DNA from: Lachnospiraceae bacterium JLR.KK008
Lineage (GTDB): Bacteria; Bacillota; Clostridia; Lachnospirales; Lachnospiraceae
Length of the DNA stretch: 64,000 bases
Direction of reading: 5' to 3'
NCBI GenBank assembly: GCA_037015955.1
Contig: CP143548.1
Location: forward strand, 954,001-1,018,000
Made by a program: the position numbers and the translations under genes. Below are positions 52,224 to 64,000 of this stretch, piece after piece (the stretch's first letter is position 1; each line of letters starts with the position of its first letter). Below the pieces are notes generated by a model. It was not told where the DNA came from, did not search any database, and saw only the letters and a program-made list of their open reading frames with translations.

Positions 52224-52575
52224 GAATAAGTAGGACAAATGATCGCGGCTGCAATCGCCGAAAGGCAGCAGGTGAGGAAAGTCCGGGCTTCACAGGGCAG
52301 AATGCCGGATAACGTCCGGTGGAGGCGACTCCAAGGAAAGTGCAACAGAAATAAACCGCCGGGAAAACCGGTAAGGGTGGAAAGGCAGTGTAAGAGACTA
52401 CCGCTCTGCTGGTAACAGCGGAGGCACATGTAAACCCCATTCGAAGCAAGACCGAAACGAGAGCGACAGGCCGGCCCGGCCTGCTCTCAGGTGGGTCGCT
52501 GGAGGCTGCTGGCAACAGCAGTCCTGGATAGATGATCATTCAACGACATAACCCGGCTTATCGTCCTGCTTATTC
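52224..52575 (+). ncRNA. rnpB: RNase P RNA, class A
   Basis: Catalytic RNA of RNase P. The conserved core is visible: GAGGAAAGTCCGGGCTTC (from 52274), ACAGAAATAAACCGCC, GGTAAGGGTGGAAAGG, and the 3' strand GATGATCATTCAACGACA-TAACCCGGCTTATCG. The 5' end GAATAAGTAGGAC (52224-52236) pairs with GTCCTGCTTATTC at 52563-52575 as P1. Class A, as usual for Clostridia. No intrinsic terminator follows; the next bases belong to an AT-rich foreign-looking segment. Confidence 0.96.
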
Positions 52576-52578
52576 TCT

Positions 52579-53491: not shown

Positions 53492-53564
53492 TGGAGATAG
53501 CGAGACTCGAACTCGTGACCTATACGTTGCGAACGTATCGCTCTCCCAACTGAGCTATATCCCC
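53492..53564 (-). tRNA. tRNA-Ala (anticodon CGC)
   Basis: 73 nt on the minus strand. Acceptor GGGGATA/TATCTCC (one G-T), D-arm GCTCAGTTGGGAGAGC, anticodon stem ATACG/CGTAT with loop TTCGCAA (CGC, reads GCG), T-arm GAGTTCGAGTCTC. CCA not encoded. The 5' side faces the prophage and the 3' side the SOD gene. Confidence 0.92.
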
Positions 53565-55589: not shown

Positions 55590-57356
55590 TTATTTATGTG
55601 GTGGTTTACAAGAAAGTGCTACTGAAAATGCTTGACTTGAAAGATTATGCGCAATTTGTAAATTCGTTTCGAATGCACCAGACAGGTAATTCTCTCCAGA
55701 TGCGCCACCTAAAATAGCATAGGATACTTTGTTATTGTTATAATACAATGCATCACATTCTTTTGATGTTGTAGAACCATTTGTTTTATAAGGAATTCGC
55801 CCAAATTTTAAATCAACAGTATCGGTTATTATACCGCCAGATGTCCCTTCCGGGTTTGCTCCATTTACAACGATATATCCATTACCGTCTAAATTAAAAT
55901 TAGAAGATGTTGACCCGTCATGAGTCCCCCAGGTAATCTTGATTTTTTGTGTTCCATTATTATTAATCCATCCGGCAGTTCTGCGTCCAATATTTCCCCA
56001 CCAATTCTCCATTCCAAATACTTTAACACCATAACTCGTATCTCTGGTACCCCAAAACAATCCTTTATCATTCATTGTTCCTTGGCCTATTGATGAATAA
56101 TCATTTTGAACAGTCCTTCCCATTCCATATACTTCCTGCGTATTTGTATTTTTTGCCATCATTACTAGTAAATCCTGAATTAAAAGCCTGTCAGATAGGA
56201 ACTCTATATACCATCCATCACCATTTTTTACTGCATAATTGATACCAGCTTCTGTAGTGATATTATAATAATTAGACTTACCAGAGATAGAACATAACTT
56301 ATTTAAAGATTGATTTTGTGCATTATATATTAATCCGCCAAAGTATATTGGAGTATAGAAATGATCAATGACATTATTATTTTTGTCATAATTACACCAG
56401 CAATCATATTCTTGATCAATCTTTACATCTGAACACCTGAAATGGTAAATACCGTTCTCAGTCCATCTTTTCGTATAAATTTTTGGCCATTCCATCATTG
56501 CATTCGCCCCGAAGGTTACATCAGCAACATGTGAATTTACACCATCTATTGTTCTGGTGTAATCATCCAGATCTAAATATTCTGCGACTGTACAGTCACA
56601 TTTTAACATACATGGTCTGGGCATAAATTTTTCTCCTGGTGCAATAGACCATCCACCATAATCAAATTGATCTGAATCGAAATTCATGCAAGCAGGTGTA
56701 AAATTGGCGTTATCTACATCGGACGGATATATGACACGTGCATCAGGATCATCGACATCTTTCATCAAATCATAACCAAATAGATAGTAATCCCTTGCAG
56801 GAGCAACTTTTACACGGTTTGCTTTATTTCGGTTATATACGCCTTGTACTGTATAGGGAAAAGCAGCATAATAATAAGTAGTTCCAGTAATTACATTTTC
56901 ATCAATGATTTCTTGGTTTTCGGTAATGTCAGCAATTAAATCACCACTATATTCATCATTAGGATAGCCGTCAGTACTTCTCCTGATGGTGGCTCCTGCC
57001 ACAGTACATAGTGTCTGCTCATTAACGACAGTATCGTTTGGAAGCTCTGCATTAATTTTTACAACTGAATTTTCATATTTTGCTGAAAAAGTGATCATGT
57101 TAGAAGGTTCTATACCACAAATCTCATCTCGCCATCCAGGATTCCCGTTGGCATCAGTCTTCCAGACTTTGTTTGCCTGTCCATTACCGGCAGCAACATA
57201 TCCTTCATTAGAGTTACTATTTTCTTTCCAAGTATCTGTATCTGTTGTTTTAAAATCACTGTCATTTATGAGCTGACTTGTTTTCGTAGGTATCAGTGCC
57301 AGCAGTTTATTTTTAAAATGTTGAATCGCTGACAGATTTACTATTTTTTCTTTCAT
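55590..57356 (-). CDS. Phage receptor-binding/tail fibre protein with C-type-lectin-like end
   Basis: 588 aa. N-terminal segment ([40 protein letters not shown]) is a common attachment motif of tail fibres in Firmicutes phages. The C-terminal 200 residues ([20 protein letters not shown], then [20 protein letters not shown], ending [11 protein letters not shown]) read like the C-type-lectin/formylglycine-enzyme fold of adhesins, including targets of diversity-generating retroelements. No reverse transcriptase or template repeat is visible in the window. Very AT-rich. Confidence 0.68.
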
Positions 57357-57610: not shown

Positions 57611-59287
57611 TCACAAGTACAAATCATAAAATTTCATTAACTGCCAGGTGGTAGTGCCGCCGCTTAAATCATGTGCGACTGACTTGACGATATATTGATG
57701 TGTTTCCCTTTGATCACTTCTCCGGTAACTTACTTTTATGTTTACATCGGCGAACGGGCACAGCTTTGTGGTGATCGTGATGGAGTCTGGCAATCTGCAG
57801 TTTTTCCAGTTTTCATATTCGGCGCGGGAGAGAGCGAGAGAGTCGGAAGTGATATTTTCATACTCGCCACCTTGTTTTACGTCTAAAATTTCACCCAGTT
57901 CCTGTACTGTAAAGGGACTGTCCGGTATCACTGTGAAATCAACGCTGTCACAGTGATAGACCGATTGAAAATACTCTTTGGAAAATACTTTTACAACCTT
58001 GCCGTCCTGTGTTGTATAATCCATATCACTGATAAAACCGTTTGTGAGTACATTGATCCCGTGTGCCTGCCATTGTCCGAGATAATAGGCATAAGTAACC
58101 GTATCATTATTTACACGTTTTGTTTTCAGTTTGAAGACATATGTTGATCCCGCTTCGAAAACATTTGGCGCTATCGGTTCCTCCGTATTTTCGTCTATTA
58201 TATTGATCTCACCGAGCTCGTTTATATTTAACTGGCATCCGGCATCGTTTGAAGAAGGAACTTTTACTGCAACCATATCACCACTTTTGTACTTATCATA
58301 AGAATCAACATGACAAGTAAGACAATTTCCAGTATAAGCACAGTCTTCCGTATAATAGTCTGCATCTAAGGATCGTCCCCATACTTCGCAAATATTTCTT
58401 ACTTTGGTTAAATCAATCGTTGTATTCTCAGATATTAAGATTTTTGAAAAGAAAGAGTTGTCAAATGTAATCATATCTTCGTAACAACCCGGAATCATTT
58501 TGCATACAAATACGCCGTCTTCGTCAAAATACATTTCATAATTCGGGTATAAGTCACGGAATGTTGTCAAAATAGAAAGAACGCTGCATCCTGCGGTAAA
58601 TTCCTGATCGCAGGGCAGCGCGTTCCATGTTTCCATATAAGTGCCGTCTTTTACCTGTACTTTTGACTGTTCCCGATATTCCAGGTAGTCCGCATTGTAA
58701 GCGGGCATTCCCTTGAACTCGCCGATTTCGTCGATTTCATATTCCGTGACTTTCCCGAGCCGTGTCAGGGTGGTAATGATTGCGTCACGTATGGAATTAT
58801 ATTTGACGATCTGCCCTGTCGCAGGGTCCGCTTCATATGCCGGGAACTTTATTGTCAGAGCTCCTAACTGTCCACTTTTTGTTCCGTCAAGTTTCGTCAT
58901 CAGATCGGAACAGCTCATGCTGATCTGATTGCTGGCAGAGTCATAGTTTGCGGTAGTATTGGAAAATACATAGGTTCCCTGTCTGTACCAGCGCCACTGA
59001 TTCCATATGTTATCTTGTATTCCAATCTGTATTTTGATGATCCGATTGGGCCATATAATACCGTCTTTATCTACTGCCAAATATCTGTTTTTTAACGGAA
59101 CAGCAGTAGCGGAAAAACTACGTCTGACATCCGATTCGGCGTCAATACTTGAGGAACCGTTGATAAGCCCACACTCCAAAGTATCAAGATGTTCTCCATT
59201 TTGCTCGTCATAGACGTCTATTTTTATTCGAATATCCAGTATATTTTGAGCGATTATTTTTAAGTCTCTTGTATTTACCTGCATCAT
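57611..59287 (-). CDS. Phage tail/baseplate hub-like protein
   Basis: About 559 aa. N-terminal DLKIIAQNILDIRIKIDVYD and IDAESDVRRSFSATAVPL, then NSTTANYDSAS-type strands and a long beta-rich body (GSTYVFKLKTKRVNNDTVTY), typical of siphophage Tal/hub proteins of Clostridia, sometimes named DUF5048 (low certainty). The last part (PDSITITTKLCPFADVNIKV, HQYIVKSVAHDLSGGTTTWQ) resembles the closing domain of hub proteins. No peptidase motif recognised. Two adjacent ATGs (59287, 59284) overlap the stop of the next gene upstream. Confidence 0.68.
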   Translation of the reverse strand: MMQVNTRDLKIIAQNILDIRIKIDVYDEQNGEHLDTLECGLINGSSSIDAESDVRRSFSATAVPLKNRYLAVDKDGIIWPNRIIKIQIGIQDNIWNQWRWYRQGTYVFSNTTANYDSASNQISMSCSDLMTKLDGTKSGQLGALTIKFPAYEADPATGQIVKYNSIRDAIITTLTRLGKVTEYEIDEIGEFKGMPAYNADYLEYREQSKVQVKDGTYMETWNALPCDQEFTAGCSVLSILTTFRDLYPNYEMYFDEDGVFVCKMIPGCYEDMITFDNSFFSKILISENTTIDLTKVRNICEVWGRSLDADYYTEDCAYTGNCLTCHVDSYDKYKSGDMVAVKVPSSNDAGCQLNINELGEINIIDENTEEPIAPNVFEAGSTYVFKLKTKRVNNDTVTYAYYLGQWQAHGINVLTNGFISDMDYTTQDGKVVKVFSKEYFQSVYHCDSVDFTVIPDSPFTVQELGEILDVKQGGEYENITSDSLALSRAEYENWKNCRLPDSITITTKLCPFADVNIKVSYRRSDQRETHQYIVKSVAHDLSGGTTTWQLMKFYDLYL

Positions 59288-60204
59288 CTGTTCCACCATT
59301 CCTCAGTAGCAGTAATGAACCCTGCATCGTAAAGATCTCTTTCCCGCTCCGGATCGCCTACTTCCGTACAGGTAAAGGTTATTTTTCTGTTCCTGTAATC
59401 ATCGACTGCCGTATCTGACGGGGGAGTAGTAACGTATACGAGCCATAGATTGCCGTCAACGCTTTTTAATATTTTCGGTTTCCCGTTTCTTAAAAATAAT
59501 TTTGCCGCATTGTTATAGTTAATCCGGCGCTGGTCATCATCCAGTATGTATTCGCACCCATTATCAGCTGTTGGAAAGAATTGTGCATTCACAGTAATTT
59601 CCTCATAATTTGCTTCTGTATTTCGGACAATCGTTGGATACTTGTCATACATAGTCGTGACGGTCTGTTGCGGGACGATAGAAGTGTTGTCCAGATAGTT
59701 ATCACTTAAATTTGTGTTCCATACTTCATCCTGATCGGCTATCATCAAAGAATTTGATTTTACTTCTACATTGCAGGTAAAATAAAATCCTTCTCTGCCA
59801 TTTATGATTGGAACAGCGGCATATTGATACGCATAGTCTGGTCTTGCAGTTATATCAATATTTTTTATGTTGAAATCGGCAATCGTTTCAACTTTGTGTG
59901 TCTCAAGTGTGATCCACTTAAAATCGCCTGCCTTTTTACGTTTGATAATCAAATGTGATACCGTATCAAGTCTCCAATTCACATTACCGGCGCATGTATT
60001 GCCATTAAATTTTGCATGTAAAATAGTGTCCCAGTCCCATTCTTGCGGTATCGTTACTTTCAGTTCGTCTGTCACATTTTGTGATACGCGCAGATCATCA
60101 TATTCCCCGTCCGATAAGTCTGCCTTTACTATATTATTCATATCTGTAGGGGTACATGGAACAGACATAATATCTGCACAGAACATACTACCCAAAAATA
60201 TCAT
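59284..60204 (-). CDS. Phage tail protein, unassigned
   Basis: 306 aa, beta-rich. DELKVTIPQEWDWDTILHAKFN, TARPDYAYQYAAVPIINGRE and LDDDQRRINYNNAAKLFLRNG are recognisable as a family that accompanies the hub protein in Clostridia prophages, but I cannot give a name. Overlaps both neighbours by 4 bases. Likely a distal-tail or hub-adjacent protein. Confidence 0.6.
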   Translation of the reverse strand: MIFLGSMFCADIMSVPCTPTDMNNIVKADLSDGEYDDLRVSQNVTDELKVTIPQEWDWDTILHAKFNGNTCAGNVNWRLDTVSHLIIKRKKAGDFKWITLETHKVETIADFNIKNIDITARPDYAYQYAAVPIINGREGFYFTCNVEVKSNSLMIADQDEVWNTNLSDNYLDNTSIVPQQTVTTMYDKYPTIVRNTEANYEEITVNAQFFPTADNGCEYILDDDQRRINYNNAAKLFLRNGKPKILKSVDGNLWLVYVTTPPSDTAVDDYRNRKITFTCTEVGDPERERDLYDAGFITATEEWWNR

Positions 60205-61493: not shown

Positions 61494-61751
61494 CTACCTT
61501 TTCGCACATATGTATGCTTCATTCATGCTGTGTTTTCCATTTGGGGTCTTTACCCATACGGCGGTTCCTACCGTCGGATGGATATTTACGCCGTCCTTCA
61601 CCCAATAGTCGTTTCCGTCTATCTTCACCTGATATTGACCAGAAGATATGGCGGTTACAACAGTGGCAATCTCCGTATTTTTTGCATGGTTTGCCAATGC
61701 CTTATCCAGCGTGATTCTGATAGAATTGATGAGTTCTTCCTGTAAATCCAT
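61494..61751 (-). CDS. Small OB-like phage baseplate protein
   Basis: 85 aa. The IATVVTAISSGQYQVKIDGN and VNIHPTVGTAVWVKTPNG segments resemble the OB-fold proteins at the tail tip (gpV/gp5-like or DUF2577-type small proteins). First gene after the structured gap, with AAAGGAAAGGAAATAACCT as ribosome site. Confidence 0.6.
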   Translation of the reverse strand: MDLQEELINSIRITLDKALANHAKNTEIATVVTAISSGQYQVKIDGNDYWVKDGVNIHPTVGTAVWVKTPNGKHSMNEAYICAKR

Positions 61752-61781
61752 AGGTTATTTCCTTTCCTTTTGTTTTTGCCT

Positions 61782-62013
61782 GTCACGCTGCACAAATGAT
61801 TTGCTTCCGCTCAAAGACTGCGGACATAAGAATTTCTAACTGTTCTGACGAGGGTAACTGATCTGCGAGGCAATCGGCTGATATTCGCCATCCGGGCTCA
61901 GATCAGCCTTTTTCGGACATCCCTGTCCGAAAATTGCCGGGAGATGACAGAACAGTAAGAAATTCTAATATCCTTCGTATATCGCGTTCCTCAAATCATT
62001 TGTGCAGCGTGAC
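61782..62013. other. Large nested inverted-repeat structure (candidate structured RNA or folded element), part 1
   Basis: Gene-free. Outer perfect 22-bp inverted repeat: 61782-61803 against 61992-62013 (begins GTCACGCTGCACAAA). Inside: 19-bp inverted repeat with one mismatch, 61829-61847 against 61948-61966 (AGAATTTCTAACTGTTCTG); 8-bp stem CTGATCTG/CAGATCAG (61858-61865, 61899-61906); 10-bp hairpin TTTTCGGACA/TGTCCGAAAA (61910-61919, 61924-61933); short hairpin TCCGC/GCGGA (61806-61810, 61820-61824). The fold would be a long rod closing a multibranch loop. Minus-strand read ends just before the next gene's ribosome site. Weak extension of the stem runs to about 61767 and 62030. Confidence 0.7.
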
Positions 62014-62040
62014 GAAACCAAAAAGAAAAGCAGGCTTTTT

Positions 62041-62181
62041 CTTCCGCAAAAACATGAAAGTCAGACACGCCGGACATTTCGATGAGCCTGTGAATACAAA
62101 AGCCATGTTCCGCAAAGGCTTCCATGGTTTTACAGTCTCATCTCCATGGCGGTCAAATGCCTTTCTTTGTTTTTGTGGAAG
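62041..62181. other. Second inverted-repeat domain beside the 22-bp structure
   Basis: Stem CTTCCGCAAAAAC (62041-62053) with GTTTTTGTGGAAG (62169-62181); the one mismatch is a G-T pair only if the plus strand is the RNA. It encloses CCATGG repeats near 62119 and 62148 and lies 28 nt from the first domain. Together they fill the 465 bp between the tape measure gene and the small baseplate gene. Confidence 0.5.
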
Positions 62182-62215
62182 AATTGATTGCGTTTCGTAA
62201 ATACCTTTTGTTCCC

Positions 62216-64000
62216 TTACCTGCTAATCATACTTTTCTGGTATGCCTTCATCGCCAGTCCGGTAAATTCATGTTCCAGTGCGATTCCTACCTGTTTCATT
62301 ACCTGTTGGTCGGTCACGCCGGGGCAGGTGATCGTGACGCCTCCCATGTTAATGATCGGTTGCATATGATTGTTCGTAACAACAGTTGAATTGGTGATCT
62401 GCCTCAGCATACTCTCCATCTGCTGTTCGTGCCGGGCCATCGCATTGACAGAGAGAAATTCCGGCCCGCCCATCCTCTGCACATACGCATCAAACCGTTT
62501 CCCCATCAAGATGTCGGGATGGTCGTCGGGCAGCGGGGTGTATACATGCCCGTCAGAGCCGAGGAAGCTCCCTCTGGGATAGGGATTGCCGTTTTTATCC
62601 AGCATGACGGCGCCGTCTCTGTCCCTGAGCAGCCCATCGTTTTGTTCGATGACCGTATCCTGTCCGGTTTTCAGCCCGGTGATCGTATCCAGCAGCTTTT
62701 GGAACTGCTCGCTGTCCCACAGCTCGCGGATACTGCCCTCCAGTACGCTGACGGAGGAGGCGTCCGCCGTTCCCGAGGCGAAGGCGCCGATCAGCTTCCC
62801 GCGGCCGCCGCCCGAGGTGACGCGGTGGTATCGCTTTAGTTCTTCGGTCTGTCTGTGGTTGAAGACGATGTCTCCCTTTTTGAGCTGTACTTCCTGCGCA
62901 CCGCCGGTGATCTCGTACAGCGTTCCCCCGCGGGCGATCATCTCGTTTCCCAGTTCGTTGACAAGGGAGGTCTGGTCTCTGGCAACGGCGCCGCTTCCGT
63001 CAGGGGAAGAGAGCGTGCCGTATGCGTTCGCAGCGCTGACCGGATGGGCCGCATAGCCGCTTGTTACCTTGTCGATCTTGTAGGCGCTGGTATTCTTAGC
63101 CTGCAGCTCCTTTAATGCTTTTAAGGCCGCGTTTACCATGTCAATGACTTCGTTAGCCATGTCCGTGGTCATGGTGCATACGGAGGCGCAGATGCCGTCG
63201 ATGGAAGAGGCGAAGGACTCAAAGCCGGGAATCCATTCCTCGTTTAAGGCGGCAGCGGCGGCCTGTCCTCCGGCGGTGATGGTCCCGACGATGGTGCCGT
63301 CGCCGGCGCTTTCTTTTCCGGAGGCGGAGGCATTTGCCGACGACGGGCCGAGGATGTCGGCCAGTTTTCCGCCGGTTCTCTTTTCCGGCTTTTCTGCGGA
63401 TGAGATGCCGATGATGGCCCCGAGGTCGGTGTTAAACTGGGTCCATGCGCCCGCGTATTCTGTCAGTTTCGTGTCGATGGCAGTCTTTGCAGTGTCCATG
63501 GCAGTCAGGAGAGGGGCGAAGAGGGCGTCGCAGCCTGTGGCCTGTCCGGAAGCGGTTTCCTGTCCGCTTATGGACTGGATCATGCCGTTCCAGATAGAAG
63601 GGATCTCGAGGCAGATCCCGCGGAATCTCTCGATAAAGGCATGTAACTGTCCGAGGATGCCGCCGGCTCCGTCTTCCCCTGAAAGGGCGGCGGCGAACTG
63701 CCGGGTATCAAGGGCGGGGATGGAAAGGCTCTGGACCTCGGAGGTAAGCGTATCCAGCGTTTGGGTAACTCCTTCCACCTGCTGCTGCATTTCCTGTGCG
63801 GATGCGCCCGCAGTGTGGAACTGTTCGCTGGCAGCCGTGGTGTCCGCCGCGTTTAACGCTTCCCCGATCTGCCTGGAGGAGTCGGCGGTCTGGCCGATGG
63901 CGAGGCCGAGCAGGCCGGCTTTCCCGGTCAGTTCGTCCATGGACAGTCCGGACAGGCGCATGGCGTTGTCCATAGAGACGGAGACTCCGGCAAGCTCTCC
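62216..64000 (-). CDS. Phage tail tape measure protein, C-terminal part (5' end beyond window)
   Basis: At least 595 residues, open to the window end, so the N-terminus is outside. Helical, Ala/Gly/Ser-rich, with coiled stretches (EMQQQVEGVTQTLDTLTSEV), a typical TMP end (NELGNEMIARGGTLYEITGG, VQLKKGDIVFNHRQTEELKR) and IGAFASGTADA. Sets tail length in siphophages. Its GC content is clearly higher than that of the tail genes after it, so the module looks mosaic. Confidence 0.82.
   Translation of the reverse strand, partial: GELAGVSVSMDNAMRLSGLSMDELTGKAGLLGLAIGQTADSSRQIGEALNAADTTAASEQFHTAGASAQEMQQQVEGVTQTLDTLTSEVQSLSIPALDTRQFAAALSGEDGAGGILGQLHAFIERFRGICLEIPSIWNGMIQSISGQETASGQATGCDALFAPLLTAMDTAKTAIDTKLTEYAGAWTQFNTDLGAIIGISSAEKPEKRTGGKLADILGPSSANASASGKESAGDGTIVGTITAGGQAAAAALNEEWIPGFESFASSIDGICASVCTMTTDMANEVIDMVNAALKALKELQAKNTSAYKIDKVTSGYAAHPVSAANAYGTLSSPDGSGAVARDQTSLVNELGNEMIARGGTLYEITGGAQEVQLKKGDIVFNHRQTEELKRYHRVTSGGGRGKLIGAFASGTADASSVSVLEGSIRELWDSEQFQKLLDTITGLKTGQDTVIEQNDGLLRDRDGAVMLDKNGNPYPRGSFLGSDGHVYTPLPDDHPDILMGKRFDAYVQRMGGPEFLSVNAMARHEQQMESMLRQITNSTVVTNNHMQPIINMGGVTITCPGVTDQQVMKQVGIALEHEFTGLAMKAYQKSMISR

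Follow-up and report, generated by a model that had tools for sequence, protein, structure and literature searches.

The closest described relative of the structure discussed here is the TwoAYGGAY RNA (RF01731). In 2010 it was listed as a probable RNA, probably without a cis-regulatory role and with no known function (PMC2864571, accessible excerpts), and Rfam gives it the type 'Cis-reg'. In 2014 it was proposed, from motif matches, to be a CsrA-binding small RNA (PMC4333381, excerpts). Accessible portions of open-licence PMC articles that name TwoAYGGAY do not mention a mobile element. The binding site of CsrA was defined by SELEX as RUACARGGAUGU, with ACA and GGA invariant and the GGA placed within a hairpin loop in 51 of 55 ligands (PMC7652899, excerpts). 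CsrA and MITEs are both covered, separately, by the Rfam 12.0 paper (PMC4383904, in part), and the links of csrA genes with phages or plasmids are discussed in PMC7366521 (in part). Among the open-licence PMC papers listed, in their accessible text, no work was found that joins MITEs with CsrA or CsrA with phage sponge RNA, nor any that joins MITEs with structured RNA in Lachnospiraceae or Roseburia or with Rfam covariance models.

The window analysed here is a stretch of 64,000 nucleotides from Lachnospiraceae bacterium JLR.KK008 (own genome, G000; other G numbers denote the genomes of sampled relatives). Two minus-strand ORFs near its end are separated by 464 bp, which agrees with the roughly 465 gene-free bp reported between two tail-side ORFs in the initial annotation. 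This block is best explained as two adjacent dispersed MITE-like copies, each with a conserved RNA core in palindromic arms; together with the CsrA-binding proposal given below, this reading is assigned a probability of roughly 0.7. The features, in the direction of the minus strand, are:

62216..63973, minus strand: the operon's upstream ORF, 585 aa when counted from the first ATG, open to the window end
62193..62205, minus strand: terminal-repeat-like left end of the second element, GGTATTTACGAAA, for which a counterpart on the right was not found
62028..62186, minus strand: second structured RNA family, match to model R1 at 168.8 bits (inner core 62075-62145)
61992..62013, minus strand: palindromic arm on the 5' side of the TwoAYGGAY element, not covered by the Rfam model, 22/22 complementary to 61782-61803
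61815..61980, minus strand: TwoAYGGAY RNA core (RF01731), model positions 1-168 of 168, 109.1 bits (cut-off 43), E 1.4e-18
61915..61928, minus strand: hairpin 1, GGACAGGGAUGUCC, which includes the ACARGGAUGU of the CsrA SELEX consensus
61887..61897, minus strand: tip of hairpin 2, GCCCGGAUGGC, with the second GGA, placed by the RF01731 alignment
61782..61803, minus strand: 3' palindromic arm of the TwoAYGGAY element, 22/22 complementary to 61992-62013
61494..61751, minus strand: downstream ORF of the operon, 85 aa, with a homologue in G008 (65% identity)

Both elements thus sit between the upstream and the downstream ORF. The order along the minus strand is a phage gene, 10 bp, the second element (left end and core), the TwoAYGGAY element and the next phage gene. 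The upstream ORF, a putative tape measure gene in the initial annotation, is without a PHROGs or Pfam match. The proposed tail-operon setting has support because two ORFs further downstream (57611-59299 and 55590-57356) match PHROGs tail families. A bacterial class A RNase P RNA gene (52227-52576, 309 bits) and a tRNA gene adjoining the phage-like region (53492-53564) also lie in the window. A homologous junction is found in G008, where the upstream protein is 54% and the downstream protein 65% identical to those of the window, and where the space between them contains two different ORFs (200 and 62 aa). In the second prophage of the own genome, the upstream DNA is 93% identical and just 73 bp lead from the upstream gene to an 86-aa ORF, for which tblastn gave no match to the 85-aa protein of the window. 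The junction in the window looks like a variable site that receives cargo. The two extra ORFs of G008 (L067, G008:C22, 1437-2209) are both without a Pfam match; the 200-aa ORF weakly matches a PHROGs family of unknown function.

Dense nesting of inverted repeats had been described for this block, and its main parts were recovered. The perfect 22-bp inverted repeat (61782-61803/61992-62013) spans 232 bp, and a 26-nt pair with 88% complementarity lies inside it (61822-61847/61948-61973). A 10-bp hairpin is nested at 61910-61933, and the second stem domain was found as a 16-nt stem of 94% complementarity (62039-62054/62168-62183). When both strands of 61740-62210 were folded, energies of -182.9 kcal/mol (plus) and -181.1 kcal/mol (minus) were obtained, with z values of -11.67 and -10.88; on neither strand did any of 100 shuffles equal the fold. 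The inverted repeats are judged to be real.

The block was compared to Rfam 15 by cmscan, which gave no match besides RF01731 in 61740-62215 at E up to 1. The window copy passes the gathering score over the full model length. It carries two GGA-bearing apical hairpin loops, AGGGAU and CGGA; the strict AYGGAY is absent from these loops, as it is from many other copies above the cut-off. The strand had been left open in the initial annotation, and the minus strand is now supported because the RF01731 match lies on it. The proposal of a novel large structured RNA stands as regards structured RNA; the main domain belongs to a known family, and it is the second domain that is not in Rfam.

Scattered genomic copies, which the initial annotation had proposed to look for, do occur: the own genome contains eight RF01731 matches over the cut-off, which makes this a dispersed repeat and not one phage-specific RNA. 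Matches were found in 9 of the 61 sampled genomes, own included (at least 38 each in G002 and G006, 20 in G013, 18 in G031, 17 in G001, 8 in G000, 7 in G017 and 2 each in G008 and G032). Five of ten genomes of the same genus (own included) are without RF01731. The family sample comprised 299 Lachnospiraceae genomes from 298 genera, nearly every genome another genus, and RF01731 was found in 45 of them (43 over the cut-off); in the phylum sample it was found in 51 of 398 genomes (34 over the cut-off). These family and phylum scans scored the best 9 and best 6 candidates per genome, so that copy numbers are minimum values and some of the genomes scored negative may in fact carry RF01731. No DNA similar to the block was found in 50,697 phage records, and none of 17 pattern stretches in viral contigs encoding the upstream protein proved to be a relative. 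One TwoAYGGAY copy of the own genome (L006, G000:C1:1024636-1024805) has the second end type described below and lies between two phage-like ORFs, one of which encodes a PhageMin_Tail protein (PF10145); a partial copy at C1:1036982 lies inside the second prophage region. Near pairs of elements (gap below 600 bp) are arranged head to head, so that their RNA 5' ends point at each other, in 11 of 12 cases among the matches listed, according to a hand-compiled list (G001:C18, G002:C85, G006:C22, C53 and C65, G017:C33 and C47, G070:C123, G240:C69, G223:C1, G264:C1).

The anatomy of the element was derived from 75 TwoAYGGAY copies of relatives, picked from the matches in the 61 genomes for having flanking sequence. 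Many G002 copies are bounded by common ends, ATTCGGGTGTCAAAAG...CTTTTGACACCCGAAT, at a distance of about 307 bp, and the own-genome copy at 1189138 bears them as well (306 bp). The exact 16-mer end is present in at least 115 stretches of named genome contigs, mostly from Lachnospiraceae among the matches listed. From all loci, 76 distinct end pairs were collected, 74 of which had enough flank. With the element defined as GATTC...GAATC, the flanking 7-mers agree at 6 or more of 7 bases in 41 of these 74 elements, compared to 3.1% in controls in which left and right flanks from different elements were paired. The family thus has the terminal inverted repeats and 7-bp target duplications by which a MITE is recognized. 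The TwoAYGGAY core is present in 34 of the 37 elements that measure 261-360 bp and in 2 of the 39 that are shorter; the shorter elements look like deletion derivatives. Several copies in G006 and G000 are delimited by a second end type, CAAACGCATGAATGAATAAA, and for some of these direct repeats of about 10 bp were seen by eye, without statistics. Judged from the repeats and duplications, TwoAYGGAY in related Lachnospiraceae travels as a MITE, as the core of an element of about 307 bp.

In the TwoAYGGAY copy of the window neither end type was found and no terminal inverted repeats were recognized. The idea of a folded MITE-like insertion therefore holds for the family, because the same core lies elsewhere within terminal inverted repeats and target duplications, but the window copy is without such ends. 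The window copies have lost most of their end repeats. They are called MITE-derived rather than intact MITEs because the TwoAYGGAY copy is end-less and the second element has its left end only, and both are probably immobile now. A clean empty site for the copy at 1189138 was not obtained; at this locus, which is deoD-like by eye, relatives have a gap of about 1.1 kb. A search by terminal repeats in the loci around the copies did not find an autonomous partner: four end pairs lie 0.9-5 kb apart, 0 of them with matching 7-bp flanks. The elements have no preferred orientation relative to genes, and a transcription-orientation bias was rejected on these counts.

Outside the Rfam core, the arms of TwoAYGGAY elements pair within a copy and are often unlike the arms of sister copies. 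Own-arm agreement over 40 nt was 0.79 in G001, 0.77 in G031 and 0.82 in G006, compared to 0.54, 0.51 and 0.57 when the same arm was matched across copies (0.46-0.50 after shuffling). The difference is small in G002 (0.72 vs 0.70) and G013 (0.81 vs 0.72), and the signal is weak in G000 (0.57 vs 0.52). The second family behaves likewise in G264 (0.80 vs 0.54) and G139 (0.97 vs 0.55), but not in G208 (0.74 vs 0.91). If the arms were kept by RNA pairing, GU mismatches should outnumber AC mismatches. The arm mismatches of TwoAYGGAY are strand-symmetric (GU 172, AC 171), those of the second family are 54 GU and 69 AC (p 0.21), and the arms look DNA-maintained because GU does not outnumber AC in them. 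The basal core stem of TwoAYGGAY has 153 GU cells and 67 AC cells (p 6.5e-9), or 33 vs 20 when each position is counted once per genome (p 0.098). By genome, the GU:AC ratio of this stem is 19:0 in G001, 40:4 in G002, 38:7 in G006 and 12:2 in G000; there is no excess in G013 (24:29) and G031 (20:25), where less than half of the basal cells pair in the alignment. Hairpin 1 shows no bias (10:9), hairpin 2 has 7:16 (p 0.093), and the junction stem, with 6 GU and 18 AC (p 0.023), is opposite to the RNA reading. Stretches that included 32 nt of the core gave 239 GU vs 178 AC; when these were split, the arms were even and the excess lay in the basal stem. The mismatch pattern thus points to DNA-level upkeep of the arms and, with moderate strength, to an RNA constraint on the basal core. 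Instead of RNA pairing, a DNA-level process probably keeps the arms complementary: it may be template switching from one arm to the other, which can create and maintain hairpins (PMC8794818, excerpts), or selection for the palindrome in the DNA. That every insertion builds its arms afresh from the flanking DNA is not favored because 4 of 8 G139 copies share, by eye, the arm motif CAGGATC. The arms in general are without the strand asymmetry of the basal core stems, which suggests that long stems can covary without having a function as RNA.

The second domain (about 62205-62036) lies upstream of TwoAYGGAY on the minus strand. Three further near-full copies with 83-91% identity are present in the own genome, and a model built from five sequences detects the domain (E up to 0.001) in 14 of the 299 family genomes; with the best 9 candidates scored per genome, several of the 14 have at least 5 to at least 9 matches each. 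Covariation, proposed earlier as a check, was analyzed in an alignment of 37 matches (36 distinct; two rows are the opposite strand of other rows), where 36 of 38 pairs have changes on both sides, a strong signal. In this alignment 93.1% of cells pair, compared to 70.0% when shuffled and 37-45% when slid, the alignment being fitted to the structure, which favors pairing. The inner pairs have 64 GU vs 24 AC cells; two columns contribute about half of these GU cells. The core, taken from 12 loci, gave no match in Rfam at E up to 0.1; a sub-cut-off Clostridiales-1 match in L312 lies away from it. The second domain is an RNA family separate from TwoAYGGAY and absent from Rfam, a candidate new RNA family. 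Some of its copies have the ends GGYGWTTGCGAAA...TTTCGCAAWYRCC about 280 bp apart, of which the window copy keeps the left one only. In 7 of the 8 G139 copies the arms are 83-146 bp long and 84-94% identical with gaps included in the count, while the contig end truncates the remaining copy. Just beyond the window start, a further copy (G000:C1:953300-953440) has left and right ends about 282 bp apart. The element L309/L319 (G139:C90) is terminated by CAAACGCAAGAATGA...TCATTCTTGCGTTTG, which closely resembles the second end type of TwoAYGGAY elements, and the two cores may therefore share a transposon type.

The link with CsrA starts from the loops. Hairpin 1 of the window matches ACARGGAUGU exactly, and hairpin 2 retains only the GGA of the ACA/GGA pair. 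Loop columns were used as the index for all copies, since a GGA anywhere in the apical regions (73 of 75 copies have both) also counts a GGA in a stem. The GGA of loop 2 is kept in 74 of 75 copies. For loop 1, the 73 sequences listed comprise 47 with a full NGGA, 25 with CACGATG or CACGACG (mostly G002) and 1 with CAGGATG. In G002, the lineage with the most MITE copies, one G is missing from loop 1 (ACGAU) in most copies, as though one of the CsrA sites could be spared during amplification or was released by it.

The own genome encodes CsrA (G000:C1:476983-477141, E 2.2e-24). With kinship ignored in all of these tests, csrA was found in 9 of 9 TwoAYGGAY carriers vs 34 of 52 others in the first sample (p 0.047), in 44 of 45 carriers (exception: G200) vs 110 of 254 non-carriers in the family sample (p 1.7e-13), in 36 of 37 vs 88 of 209 among its more complete genomes (p 3.4e-11), in 49 of 51 (exceptions: G510 and G563) vs 236 of 347 in the phylum sample (p 4.1e-6), in 46 of 48 phylum carriers outside the own family (p 1.1e-5), and in 33 of 34 vs 252 of 364 when only over-cut-off phylum carriers were counted (p 0.0002). 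The second family, which serves as a control in the same family sample, has no such link (9 of 14 vs 145 of 285, p 0.42). TwoAYGGAY is best read as a mobile RNA, putatively expressed, that probably binds CsrA.

A mechanism can be proposed. Position and strand suggest that the elements are transcribed together with the neighboring operon, here the tail operon. The GGA hairpins of the transcribed TwoAYGGAY core would bind CsrA; every new insertion would then supply a transcript with additional CsrA sites, and a large number of copies could jointly act as a CsrA sink. The second core is a separate RNA family, spread in the same kind of chassis, and may have a different partner. In its most general form, the proposal describes palindromic bacterial transposons with protein-binding RNA cargo: TwoAYGGAY would be a mobile CsrA sink that spreads among hosts with csrA and travels in prophages too, the second family would use the same chassis for another partner, and the variable arms would be held by DNA-level correction. 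This generalization is offered tentatively, with doubt outweighing confidence.

The elements could also be palindromic repeats of the MITE or REP-like kind that act at the DNA level without any RNA function, their RNA-like covariation having arisen secondarily from template switching between the arms or from selection for the palindrome as DNA. The strand-symmetric arms, the absence of an orientation preference, and the terminal repeats with target duplications all fit such repeats, as do the loss of the loop 1 GGA in most G002 copies, the non-significant core test per position and the ability of template switching to make and keep hairpins (PMC8794818, as excerpted). The GU excess among the cells of the basal core stem and among the inner pairs of the second family (64 vs 24), the near-universal GGA of loop 2 and a tight csrA link that is absent from the second family argue against them, and we regard a purely DNA-level repeat as unlikely. 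Another view accepts TwoAYGGAY as a structured RNA, attributes the csrA link to shared ancestry or motility and assigns the RNA another partner or role, for example as an attenuator or mRNA stabilizer. The presence of csrA is indeed clade-structured, the co-occurrence tests ignore kinship, and Rfam's 'Cis-reg' type would suit this role. However, the link spans 45 family genomes of almost all different genera, persists in the other families of the phylum (46 of 48, p 1.1e-5) and is not shared by the second family, and the SELEX core lies within hairpin 1; one chance in four or so seems a fair description of this view.

The initial annotation had also considered a single large, ornate RNA belonging to the phage and comparable to ROOL or GOLLD, as size, nesting and prophage position would allow. 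Such a single RNA is contradicted because the two domains have separate distributions: they lie apart in the own genome and occur in different genome sets. Moreover, RF01731 is the sole Rfam match at E up to 1, so that the ROOL and GOLLD models are not matched, and 50,697 phage records hold no similar DNA. This candidate was rejected as highly improbable. The two adjacent MITE-like copies with RNA cores remain the preferred reading. With it, TwoAYGGAY, listed without function since 2010 (PMC2864571, excerpts), gains a natural history as the core of a transposable element. It also gains a named candidate partner by strong genomic co-occurrence, CsrA having first been proposed from motifs (PMC4333381, excerpts), and the second RNA family, in the same chassis and without csrA co-occurrence, provides an internal control.

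Compared to known systems, the window copy resembles TwoAYGGAY in its full-length match to RF01731 and its two GGA apical hairpins. It differs in lying within a dispersed palindromic element whose long arms extend beyond the model, and in its loops AGGGAU and CGGA, which deviate from the name-giving AYGGAY. Like the CsrA-sequestering small RNAs of the CsrB/RsmY type, TwoAYGGAY presents GGA in hairpin loops in genomes that encode CsrA; unlike them, it has two sites instead of many and is dispersed in many copies rather than encoded by one dedicated gene, and its sequestration of CsrA is putative. With bacterial MITEs the family shares terminal inverted repeats, 7-bp target duplications, deletion derivatives and the lack of coding capacity. 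In contrast to bacterial MITEs, its elements carry a conserved structured RNA core, their arms vary among copies yet pair inside each copy, and no autonomous partner was found in the loci around the copies. As in template-switching hairpins (PMC8794818, in the accessible excerpts), the arms stay complementary while their sequence diverges; here, however, this is deduced from the strand symmetry of a dispersed element instead of an ancestral reconstruction.
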